Below are positions 24,332 through 29,054 of a stretch of 64,000 bases of DNA, in pieces. Numbering within the stretch: the first letter of the stretch is position 1; each line of letters starts with the position of its first letter. Position numbers and translations under genes: made by a program. The DNA is from Rubripirellula sp. (GTDB taxonomy: Bacteria; Planctomycetota; Planctomycetia; Pirellulales; Pirellulaceae). The notes beneath the pieces were generated by a model that was not told the DNA's origin, did no database searches, and was given only the letters and a program-made list of their open reading frames with translations. The stretch covers positions 10,602 to 74,601 of the forward strand of contig JAAXIK010000310.1 in NCBI GenBank assembly GCA_012270385.1, read 5' to 3'.

Positions 24332-24934
24332 TGTCCGTGTGATTTTCATGGACCGTTATCGTGTTCATATGCAATGGGAGTTGCATCGGGGAACAGCCGG
24401 TCCGTTAACAAATCTTCGAGTGCGGGCTTACACGATGTTGACAGGCTTAAAAGTTCTTCAAAGAAAGCTTAGGCCGCAATAGGTTATCCGATGTTCCCAC
24501 ATTGCTTTGCAGTCGTACGAGTAGGATCTTTGGTTGATTACCCCGGGGGAGCCGATGAATCTCTGCTGCGATCATCCATCAGTTCCATGTCATCACTCTC
24601 ATTCTGTTTTCTAGATTGAGATTCGGGCGAGATGGTCGCTGCGTGGGGACCGATGTGGTTCGATAAAGTGACTCAGATAGATCGGGAGCTAACGTAGATG
24701 GCGGAAGAAAAATAATTCTGCTGGATCACAATCGAGTAAGTATTGCGCTACAATAGCCTGCCAGCTTAGATTTTGCCGGCAGGATTCAAAGATTCCACCT
24801 GAGTGATCTTTAAGTGACGTCCATCTGCACTTGCACTACTGTGAGTAGGATTGCGATTTCTGCCGCCGGAGGGGTGAGATGAGCTACGTGATTGTCGAGC
24901 ACATTGACGACGCCGAACCAGTAGGAATGAGACC

Positions 24935-26611
24935 TTGAATTTAAAGGCTAATCAGATTCACCACGGGAGCTGTCTCGATAAGCTCACCCAGTTGAGCGAT
25001 CTTTCAGTCGATCTGATCTTTGCAGACCCACCTTTCAATATTGGTTACCAATATGATCTGTATGACGATCAGAAGACGGAGGATGAGTATTTAGATTTCT
25101 GTAAATCATGGATAAGTCAGTGCCATCGAGTACTCAAGTCCAACGGCTCATTTTGGCTGGCTATTGGTGACGAGTATGCGGCTGAGCTGAAGGTGTTATG
25201 TAAACAACTTGGGTTCCATAGCCGGAGCTGGGTGATTTGGTATTATACGTTTGGTGTGAATTGCGCCCGAGGGTTTTCGCGCTCCCACACTCATCTCTTT
25301 CATTTCGTGAAAGACAAAGATGATTTTACTTTTAATGGTGAAAATCCTGCTGTCCGGGTCGCTTCTGCCCGTCAGTTGGTGTACGCCGACTCGAGGGCGA
25401 ATTCTAAGGGGCGATTACCGGATAACACGTGGATTTTACGGCCACAAGATGTTCCCAGCCCCGGTTTTACTATGTCCCACGATACCTGGTGTTATTCGAG
25501 AGTAGCTGGGACGTTCAAGGAACGTGAGGGCTTCCATGGCTGCCAAATGCCTGAGCAGTTACTGGGACGGATCATTCGTATTTCAAGTAACCCCGGTGAT
25601 TTGGTCGTCGACCCTTTTGCGGGAAGTGGTACGACCTTAGCCGTTGCCAAAAAGCTCGGTCGTCAATATTTGGGCGTAGAACTTTCAAAGGATTATGTCT
25701 CTCGCATTCAAGCTCGATTGGATGGATGCAAAGCGGGTGACCTTCTCGATGGTACGGATGGCCCTTCTTCTGGTGTTCCGACTTCCAAGGGAAAAAGACG
25801 AACAAAATTTGTTAATGGACGGCCTGTTATTTCTCTGTCAGGTGAATCGGAGCAGGCGATTATTGACGCATTCATGCAAGCAGCAGATGGCTATTCGGCT
25901 GATTATGTATTGTGCGACCCTGAACGAAGTACCCGATTTTTAAAACGATGCCGGGAAATTGGAATTCCGGGCGATCCGCGTTTGTGGAACTCGTTTTTAT
26001 TGAGGGTAAGAAAAGCCGGAAAACTACCCCGAGCTGAAGCTACTGGCCAGAGACTTTCGTCACAGGAGATGGATCCCTACACCGATGGAAGCGAAGTTTC
26101 CTCGCGCCTCATCACGCTCGATTACGGTTTGACGCTGGATGAGTTGCTTTGTTCGCCCGAAGCCGTTGCTGAGTTCGATAAAATGGCTACTGAGTTTTCT
26201 CCAGGTTTCAAACCGTTCCATTATCGTTGGGCTGCGCTTGCTTTGAGGAAACGAGCTACGACCAAGCGTTTCCGCACAGCAGCATCTGAGCAATTCAAGC
26301 ATTGGAAAGCACAGAAAGCACCGAGACGGAGAGCTTTGAGTCAACTCGCTTCTAAGCAGTATGCTCGCCCAGCTGTGTATGCACTATACGATGGAAAGTT
26401 TCCAGTTTACGTGGGGGAGACGCGCAATCTGAAGCAGAGGATTGAGCATTTGCTCGAGAGTGAAATGTGGTCCCGATTTAATGTGGACACCATTCGCATC
26501 TGGGATGTTGCTCAAGAGTTAGATCAGTTTGCTTTACGCTCATTTTTGGTGACAACGCAGCAGCCATTGTTGAATTCAGATTTTCTTGTATTGGATGCGA
26601 CCAACGGTTAG
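24935..26611 (+). CDS. DNA (N4/N6) methyltransferase, DPPF then FxGxG motif order, fused to C-terminal GIY-YIG-like domain
   Basis: FADPPFNIGYQYDLYDD; VVDPFAGSGTTLAVAKKLGRQYLGVELS; C-terminal AVYALYDGKFPVYVGETRNLKQRIEHLL ... TTQQPLLNS. TTG start at 24935. Confidence 0.92.
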   Translation: MNLKANQIHHGSCLDKLTQLSDLSVDLIFADPPFNIGYQYDLYDDQKTEDEYLDFCKSWISQCHRVLKSNGSFWLAIGDEYAAELKVLCKQLGFHSRSWVIWYYTFGVNCARGFSRSHTHLFHFVKDKDDFTFNGENPAVRVASARQLVYADSRANSKGRLPDNTWILRPQDVPSPGFTMSHDTWCYSRVAGTFKEREGFHGCQMPEQLLGRIIRISSNPGDLVVDPFAGSGTTLAVAKKLGRQYLGVELSKDYVSRIQARLDGCKAGDLLDGTDGPSSGVPTSKGKRRTKFVNGRPVISLSGESEQAIIDAFMQAADGYSADYVLCDPERSTRFLKRCREIGIPGDPRLWNSFLLRVRKAGKLPRAEATGQRLSSQEMDPYTDGSEVSSRLITLDYGLTLDELLCSPEAVAEFDKMATEFSPGFKPFHYRWAALALRKRATTKRFRTAASEQFKHWKAQKAPRRRALSQLASKQYARPAVYALYDGKFPVYVGETRNLKQRIEHLLESEMWSRFNVDTIRIWDVAQELDQFALRSFLVTTQQPLLNSDFLVLDATNG

Positions 26612-26709: not shown

Positions 26710-27831
26710 ATGAACAAGATTCTAAAAAAACAAACAGCTGTTATTTTTGTCTTCTTAGTGGTCTACGGCATGTTGCCGGTCAATAGTAATGAGAATGATC
26801 AAAATAAAATCAGCTGGGCGGAACTCCCTCCGCTTCCTAACGAGCTTGGTGTAGCAGGTCCCTTTGTGGGGGTTCATCGTGAAAGGCTCATCGTGGCAGG
26901 TGGAGCAAATTTCCCGGAGCCAGTCTGGGAAAATCAAAAGCAATGGTTAGACGATGTTTATGCCTTAAAACGTGAGGGTAGCGAATACAACTGGAGTACA
27001 ATTGGCAAATTACCAAGGAGGATCGCTTACGGTTGTTCAATCTCGGTCGAGGATGGCGTCCTCTGTATAGGTGGCTGCGATGCATCAGCACACTTTAGTG
27101 AAGTATTCCTCATGCGAATTAGCACGGATGGGGACAGGCTAGAAACCATTCCCTATCCATCTTTGCCAGTGAAATCGGCTTATGGTGCAGCGGCTATTCT
27201 GGACAATGTGGTTTATGTAATGGGTGGACAGGTAAATTCAAAATTGGAATCTGCCACCCAGTCTGTTTGGTCTCTTGATTTGAAACAGAGTGATCGACCC
27301 GAAGATTTACAGTGGAAACAATTGAGGGATTTTCCGGCGGCGAATCGTGCTTTTCATCTTTTGGTAGCTAGCGAAGATTCTCAAGGAGGTTCGATGTTTC
27401 TCGTCAGCGGGCGACGGAAGTCATCCGCAGGTGAAGTTGAATTTTTACGGGATGTCTGGCGCTACACGCCACGTTCTGAGCAGTGGACTCGTCGCAGCGA
27501 TATGCCCGCTTGTTGTATGGCGGGTACGGGGTTGGCTTTGGGTAATGATGAATTATTAATTGTTGGTGGTGCCGACGGATCTTTGTTTGATCAAGCGGAT
27601 GTACTCAAGGACCAGCATCCAGGTTTTCCCAAGCAACTTTACTCCTATGACTGCGAAGGTGATCGTTGGACTGGAATTGGAGGTCTCCCCGCGAATCATG
27701 TCACAACCGTCGCTGTTCAGTGGCAGGACTCTATCGTCATTCCGACTGGTGAAATTCGTCCGAGGGTTCGCACGCCGGCGGTTTTGAGGGGCTTTCGTAC
27801 GCCTGTTAAAGAAGCAGGTGCCCTTCGATGA
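26710..27831 (+). CDS. Kelch-repeat protein, NanM/YjhT-like (N-acetylneuraminate epimerase/mutarotase-like)
   Basis: WAELPPLPNELGVAGPFVGVHRERLIVAGGANFPEPVWENQKQWLDDVYAL; repeated kelch GG motifs. Confidence 0.85.
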   Translation: MNKILKKQTAVIFVFLVVYGMLPVNSNENDQNKISWAELPPLPNELGVAGPFVGVHRERLIVAGGANFPEPVWENQKQWLDDVYALKREGSEYNWSTIGKLPRRIAYGCSISVEDGVLCIGGCDASAHFSEVFLMRISTDGDRLETIPYPSLPVKSAYGAAAILDNVVYVMGGQVNSKLESATQSVWSLDLKQSDRPEDLQWKQLRDFPAANRAFHLLVASEDSQGGSMFLVSGRRKSSAGEVEFLRDVWRYTPRSEQWTRRSDMPACCMAGTGLALGNDELLIVGGADGSLFDQADVLKDQHPGFPKQLYSYDCEGDRWTGIGGLPANHVTTVAVQWQDSIVIPTGEIRPRVRTPAVLRGFRTPVKEAGALR

Positions 27832-29054
27832 TGGACGACAAAGAAACGGTCGGTGACTCAATCCAGTCCACGATTCAGCAGGAGTTTTACCGCAATTACT
27901 ATCAAGAAGGACTACTCGAAGATGTCTTGCCATTTTGGATGACTCACGGTGTGGATCATCAATATGGAGGTGTGCTCACGTGTCTGGATCAAACGGGCAA
28001 AGTGATTGACACCGATAAAGCAGTTTGGCAGCAGGGACGGTTCTGTTGGCTATTGGGAGAGCTATACAACACCTATCTGGATTATGATCCTGTTAAGAGG
28101 GAACAGTGGCTTTCTGTCGCCGAAGGGTGTGCAAAGTATTTGGATCAGTACTGCACTGATGACGAAGATGGTCGAATGTGGTTTCACCTCACGCGAGAAG
28201 GTCAACCCATAAGGAAGCGAAGGTATGCTTTCAGTGAAAGTTTTGCAGCAATAGCTTATGCCGAATTAGCGAAGGCCCGTGATGAGAGCACTTATGCTAA
28301 CAAGTCAATTGAGTTTTTTAGAAAATTTATTGAACGCTCTCGGCATCAAGATTTATCTTCGCAGAAGTTTACGAACACTCGACCAAGTCGTAGTATCGGC
28401 TACCCAATGATTACACTCATCACCGCACAGGAGATGCGGGACGCCATCCAATTCGATGAAGCAAATCACTGGATAGACGAAAGCATCGAACAGATCGTTC
28501 AATTTCACTTCAAGCCTGAGCATCGCTGCGTTGTGGAGACGGTCGCACTGGATGGCGAAATAATCGACCACTTTGATGGGCGAACGCTGAATCCGGGACA
28601 CGCGATTGAAGCATCTTGGTTCATCATGCAGGAGGGAATGTATCGGAAGGACCAGGGCTTGATGAATTTGGGCACGCAGATTCTGGATTGGATGTGGGCT
28701 CGTGGATGGGATCAGGAATTTGGTGGGATGCTTTACTTCACAGACCTGTTTGGGCATCCCGTGCAAGAGTATTGGCATGACATGAAATTTTGGTGGCCGC
28801 ATAACGAGGCAATTATCGCCACCCTGATGGCTTATGTGATTACCAAAGATGTCAAATACGCTTCATGGCATAAGCAAGTCCATGATTGGTCCTATCAGCA
28901 TTTCCCGGATCCCACGCATGGCGAGTGGTTTGGTTACCTAGATCGAACGGGTCGCGTAACCTCAACTGCCAAAGGTAACTATTGGAAGGGGCCGTTCCAT
29001 TTACCGAGAATGCAGCTGACTTGTTCCCAACTTTTGGCATCTGAGCAAGTGTGA
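27828..29054 (+). CDS. AGE family epimerase (N-acylglucosamine 2-epimerase-like)
   Basis: FWMTHGVDHQYGGVLTCLDQTGKVIDTDKAVWQQGRFCWLLGELYN ... LNPGHAIEASWFIMQ ... KFWWPHNEAIIATLMAY. Start overlaps upstream stop (ATGA). Confidence 0.92.
   Translation: MMDDKETVGDSIQSTIQQEFYRNYYQEGLLEDVLPFWMTHGVDHQYGGVLTCLDQTGKVIDTDKAVWQQGRFCWLLGELYNTYLDYDPVKREQWLSVAEGCAKYLDQYCTDDEDGRMWFHLTREGQPIRKRRYAFSESFAAIAYAELAKARDESTYANKSIEFFRKFIERSRHQDLSSQKFTNTRPSRSIGYPMITLITAQEMRDAIQFDEANHWIDESIEQIVQFHFKPEHRCVVETVALDGEIIDHFDGRTLNPGHAIEASWFIMQEGMYRKDQGLMNLGTQILDWMWARGWDQEFGGMLYFTDLFGHPVQEYWHDMKFWWPHNEAIIATLMAYVITKDVKYASWHKQVHDWSYQHFPDPTHGEWFGYLDRTGRVTSTAKGNYWKGPFHLPRMQLTCSQLLASEQV

Follow-up and report, generated by a model that had tools for sequence, protein, structure and literature searches.

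A planctomycete DNA methyltransferase with a C-terminal MID and GIY-YIG arm, probably the modification half of an old restriction–modification-like pair

The stretch of Rubripirellula sp. DNA analysed here (64,000 nucleotides of contig JAAXIK010000310.1, referred to as the window) encodes a DNA methyltransferase that continues at its C-terminus into MID, a DNA-associated domain absent from Pfam and defined here, and a GIY-YIG fold (Table 1). We favour the reading, and consider it probable, that this protein is a conserved solitary beta-class methyltransferase forming N6-methyladenine (m6A), that its C-terminal arm of MID and a catalytically dead GIY-YIG domain binds DNA, and that it represents the modification half of an old restriction–modification-like pair. 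The openly accessible papers searched gave no account of planctomycete methyltransferases with a GIY-YIG tail.

Table 1. Features of the methyltransferase gene and its product, in window coordinates.
Feature	Position	Strand	Basis or remark
Whole gene: fusion of methyltransferase, MID and predicted dead GIY-YIG	24935..26611	+	558 aa, TTG start
DNA methyltransferase domain, residues 1-266	24935..25732	+	PF01555; MboIIA and CcrM PDB matches by sequence and fold
Motif IV DPPF, residues 31-34, catalytic	25025..25036	+	direct reading
Motif I DPFAGSGTT, residues 226-234, AdoMet binding	25610..25636	+	direct reading
MID domain, residues 303-460, two all-helical repeats	25841..26314	+	predicted structure, hhalign
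GIY-YIG fold, residues 476-550, predicted catalytically dead	26360..26584	+	profile, predicted structure
Arg535, at the metal-binding glutamate position of GIY-YIG nucleases	26537..26539	+	UvrC alignment, residue counts

Many close homologues have a TTG or GTG start at the same place. A 19-codon open reading frame with a good ribosome-binding site (window 24879–24938) overlaps the TTG start with its stop codon; no sign of its conservation was found across close homologues.

The methyltransferase domain

Residues 25–258 matched the N6_N4_Mtase family of Pfam (PF01555) at 1.4e-55, and motif IV (DPPF) lies N-terminal to motif I (FxGxG-type), which is the beta-class order. Residues D31, P32 and P33 of motif IV and D226, P227, F228, G230, S231 and T234 of motif I were invariant among 69 homologues, bearing out the N-terminal methyltransferase that had been proposed from these motifs (DPPF ... 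DPFAGSGTT). The first part of a full-length model (pLDDT 83, pTM 0.85) matches CcrM, MboIIA, M.BceJIV and RsrI by fold; confidence is low at residues about 164–198, the presumed target-recognition region. The window methyltransferase is beta-class by sequence and fold, and most likely forms m6A at a specific motif, adenine being the predicted base because both the motifs and the relatives of the protein point to it. The domain would flip and methylate the adenine, its own target-recognition region being the main determinant of the motif.

YhdJ (M.EcoKII) of Escherichia coli is a solitary m6A methyltransferase with the motif ATGCAT. It has the same beta-class fold and motifs as the window protein, with 36–38% identity over the methyltransferase domain, but is without the C-terminal arm and has a different target-recognition region; the window protein scored 166.5 bits against a cut-off of 292 for the YhdJ equivalog NF008572. 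Reading the recognition motif from homology to YhdJ was dropped, as the target-recognition region aligns only with large gaps and the YhdJ motif is not transferable to the window protein. The closest solved structures are those of CcrM (GANTC) and MboIIA. CcrM, like the window's enzyme, is a class-wide conserved solitary methyltransferase and carries a DNA-binding C-terminal domain, although this extension is of another kind, and the window protein reached 122.6 by comparison with 830 for the CcrM equivalog.

Family spread and genomic setting

A scan of genomes from 84,980 species gave 409 confirmed relatives. The best 80 were retrieved; these had full or near-full query coverage and open frames, and their records all named planctomycetes. 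Homologues of full or near-full length (46–79% identity) were found in dozens of independent planctomycete genomes, including isolates and complete chromosomes; strains Pan216 (CP036279.1), SV_7m_r (CP036272.1) and TBK1r (CP036432.1) have the fused gene on a complete chromosome. The search for the same architecture that had been called for in the original prediction therefore rules out an assembly or sequencing artefact as the origin of the fusion.

Within the class of the window organism the methyltransferase was present in 346 of 398 sampled genomes and in 308 of the 339 of good quality (91%), or 166 of 186 genera; one strain of the same genus (G737) gave no methyltransferase match at E 1e-60. 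The MID–GIY-YIG module, in any protein, was present in 107 of the 398. Elsewhere the same methyltransferase ends shortly past the catalytic domain, or continues into a Lys/Ala-rich tail or into MID and a dead GIY-YIG, and the fused state changed at least eight times on a methyltransferase-domain tree with many weak branches. Many relatives lack the arm, by loss or otherwise, which shows that the methyltransferase does not depend on it in every lineage. In two such methyltransferases (L217:1480-3597 and L218:1737-3716) the Lys/Ala-rich tail runs to nearly 400 amino acids and resembles histone-H1-like sequence. Plasmid and phage records gave no match with 80% query coverage, and those listed are to the methyltransferase domain. 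A short methyltransferase with 45–62% identity is encoded on IMG/VR contigs (L153–L167); in four such contigs that were checked, a dUTPase gene lay near the methyltransferase in two and a ribonucleotide reductase gene in one.

The neighbouring genes encode a plastocyanin/DUF6797 protein, a NanM-like kelch protein, a GlcNAc 2-epimerase and a Gfo/Idh oxidoreductase, and the original prediction was right for the window in describing metabolic flanks and no adjacent restriction gene. The NanM-like kelch protein and the GlcNAc 2-epimerase (window 26710–29054) are likely to form a sialic-acid cluster. The window's own assembly, which is about 90% complete, has the fused methyltransferase gene only, with no cognate nuclease gene adjoining, and no free-standing nuclease of the MID–GIY-YIG family was found in it. 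The adjacent cognate nuclease gene of a Type II restriction–modification system is therefore absent from the window genome, as, by sequence, is the active nuclease domain that a Type IIC/IIG enzyme has in the same chain. Conserved solitary (orphan) methyltransferases are recognised by the lack of a cognate nuclease and by presence in more than 50% of the species of a class (PMC4752239), a description that fits an enzyme found in 308 of 339 good class genomes with no family nuclease in its own assembly.

A marking or regulatory role has been proposed for other conserved solitary methyltransferases (PMC4752239), and without a nuclease partner the methyl mark made by the window protein would serve genome marking or regulation. 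Because the methyltransferase is near-universal in the class and relatives have a separate intact nuclease (see below), the window protein is probably not a defence enzyme in this genome but a housekeeping-type solitary methyltransferase. Its presence in nine of ten good class genomes makes it a candidate CcrM-like regulator in organisms with an unusual cell biology; the literature searched gave no role for DNA methylation in planctomycetes.

The C-terminal arm

On the window protein alone the GIY-YIG profile PF01541 scored 14.7 bits, below the Pfam cut-off of 22.6. A family profile built from 67 homologous C-termini found the UvrC GIY-YIG domain at 1.2e-9, and an AlphaFold model of residues 293–558 (pLDDT 94.8) matched the UvrC GIY-YIG structure 1yd3 (probability 1.00, TM 0.68 of target, 2.2 Å, 76 columns), so the C-terminal GIY-YIG-type domain of the original prediction is present as a fold. 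The middle region, described there as uncharacterised, is predicted to be all-helical with two repeats, at about 303–362 and 375–444, which align to each other with an hhalign probability of 96% (E 2.1e-9). This MID domain matches nothing in Pfam, and the PDB gave no clear match to its fold; Cys339 and Glu387 are invariant among homologues.

The N-terminal GIY-YIG domain of UvrC has the same fold, but its metal-binding glutamate is replaced by Arg in the window protein and by Gln, Lys or Arg in most of the family: the glutamate of UvrC LEANLI aligned to lqslLi of the family, the same column being Arg535 in the window protein. In GIY-YIG homing endonucleases this conserved active-site glutamate is a metal ligand (E74 in I-BmoI; PMC3161791). 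Among 69 fused proteins, 67 had Gln, Arg or Lys in this column and none had Glu. When 114 fused proteins were collected, the 111 that were scorable at this position, which are related rows with some repeating one genome, had Gln (48), Lys (29), Arg (24) or other residues (10) and again no Glu. Most fused members keep both Tyr, the Arg and the Asn of GIY-YIG; the GIY Tyr is Phe in 17/69 and the Arg is replaced in 13/69. The fold is present without the full catalytic set, and the domain is predicted to be catalytically dead.

These residues bear on whether the protein could be a single-chain restriction–modification enzyme (Type IIC/IIG-like), its C-terminal GIY-YIG cutting unmethylated DNA. Such an enzyme would account for the fold and for the Tyr, Arg and Asn residues kept in most members, and an engineered protein joining the GIY-YIG enzyme Eco29kI to its methyltransferase was active (PMC3039593); however, because none of the fused homologues scored has the metal-binding Glu (0/111), an active fused nuclease is unlikely, and given also the Tyr and Arg replacements and the separate intact nuclease gene kept by relatives, we regard a single-chain enzyme as highly improbable. 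Two of the three functions originally suggested, a fused restriction–modification-like enzyme and a methylation-guided nuclease, need an active nuclease and are unlikely on the same grounds. The third, a methyltransferase using a dead GIY-YIG fold as DNA reader, is the best supported: the dead fold is predicted from the residues above, and its binding to DNA is a step that we infer.

The same module was found on a methyltransferase of a different class. Three proteins (L226–L228) consist of an Eco57I/DrmMI-like methyltransferase, classified by Pfam and PADLOC runs on L228, followed at the C-terminus by MID and a degenerate GIY-YIG, so that MID and the dead GIY-YIG apparently joined DISARM/Type IIG-like methyltransferases in a separate fusion event. 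The dead module is thus shared by two unrelated kinds of DNA methyltransferase, whereas most scored free-standing copies keep Glu. Because of this recurrence, and of the Lys/Ala-rich tails found in its place, the arm is most likely an accessory DNA-binding and positioning module and not a nuclease; MID and the dead GIY-YIG would hold the methyltransferase on DNA. For MID itself, which is without a solved relative, DNA binding is suggested by association.

Against the nearest homologues, with synonymous sites near saturation, pN/pS was 0.09–0.13 for the methyltransferase, 0.19–0.23 for MID and 0.26–0.34 for the GIY-YIG part; closer homologue pairs gave omega values of 0.01–0.04 for the methyltransferase and 0.03–0.21 for the arm. 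The arm is under purifying selection, weaker than that on the methyltransferase. It could instead be a decaying, functionless remnant, with the methyltransferase alone of importance, as its faster evolution (pN/pS 0.19–0.34) and its absence in many lineages would allow. We consider this rather unlikely, as pN/pS in the arm is well below neutral, the frames are open in the best 80 of 409 homologues, MID has its two invariant residues and the module was separately fused to another methyltransferase class.

A separate nuclease gene in relatives

In eight lineages a second gene encoding MID and GIY-YIG lies directly after or overlaps the fused methyltransferase gene. In L190 it starts 6 bases past the methyltransferase stop codon, and in the other seven its start overlaps that stop codon by 1–4 bases. 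The partner has MID and a GIY-YIG with Glu and a KHLDHSDNK-type loop in L041, L067, L079, L188, L189, L190 and L192; in L197 the contig ends before GIY-YIG. Glu occupies the metal position in all seven complete partner copies and in 15 of 18 scored rows of free-standing MID–GIY-YIG proteins (two rows repeat another), and the paired GIY-YIG scored above the Pfam cut-off in 4/4 paired proteins tested. The contrast with the fused proteins is clean, although a Fisher value computed over such related rows is no fair probability. In every such pair the methyltransferase's own GIY-YIG is already dead.

Since the partner gene in relatives encodes the same MID with an intact GIY-YIG, the ancestor appears to have been a two-gene restriction–modification pair. 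A MID tree split 40 methyltransferase rows from 17 free-standing nuclease rows on one branch (support 99/92.6), which argues that the pairing is old and rules out the nuclease gene as a recent duplicate of the methyltransferase's own tail. The GIY-YIG Type II restriction enzymes Eco29kI, Cfr42I and Hpy188I illustrate the use of this fold in restriction–modification (PMC4081073), and the relatives' paired nuclease would be of such a kind; we saw no MID-like domain described for these enzymes, whereas here a further copy, a dead one, is part of the methyltransferase itself. The restriction partner would have been lost in most lineages, surviving in a few planctomycetes.

A working pair would be the alternative to such loss: the window protein would be a modification subunit, with its nuclease encoded at an unlinked site or within the tenth of the genome missing from the assembly, and its dead GIY-YIG would pair with an active one. 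The overlapping genes in eight lineages and the free-standing intact MID–GIY-YIG proteins elsewhere in the class lend this some weight, as does the incompleteness of the genome, which leaves room for an unlinked nuclease; but no free-standing relative was found in the assembled genome or beside the gene, and paired-type partners adjoin the methyltransferase directly and are so placed in only 7 of the 398 sampled class genomes. We judge a working pair unlikely. It is also improbable that the dead GIY-YIG or MID reads methylated or hemimethylated DNA, the enzyme acting as a maintenance methyltransferase. Modified-DNA-dependent GIY-YIG fusion enzymes are known (PMC11037411), and in other defence systems a sensor role has been proposed for dead nuclease folds (PMC12839542), but unmethylated DNA is the expected substrate of the paired nuclease.

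On the favoured reading, a solitary methyltransferase derived from an old pair, the arm offers a traceable case of passage from a restriction–modification pair to a solitary methyltransferase, with the intermediates still alive. More tentatively, it is possible that the two subunits of one restriction–modification family shared a MID–GIY-YIG recognition module of which the methyltransferase copy is dead, that loss of the nuclease in most planctomycetes left the methyltransferase as a class-wide epigenetic marker, and that the dead module was re-recruited by DISARM/Type IIG-like methyltransferases.

Five free-standing proteins with MID and an intact GIY-YIG have no adjoining methyltransferase (L142:2895-3917, L229:2613-3539, L230:2479-3402, L232:2502-3599 and L233:2730-3683); by eye they have hydrophobic N-termini resembling export signals and may be exported nucleases. 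A further type of free-standing MID–GIY-YIG protein is encoded at L195, L198, L204 and L205, with the Glu missing in three.
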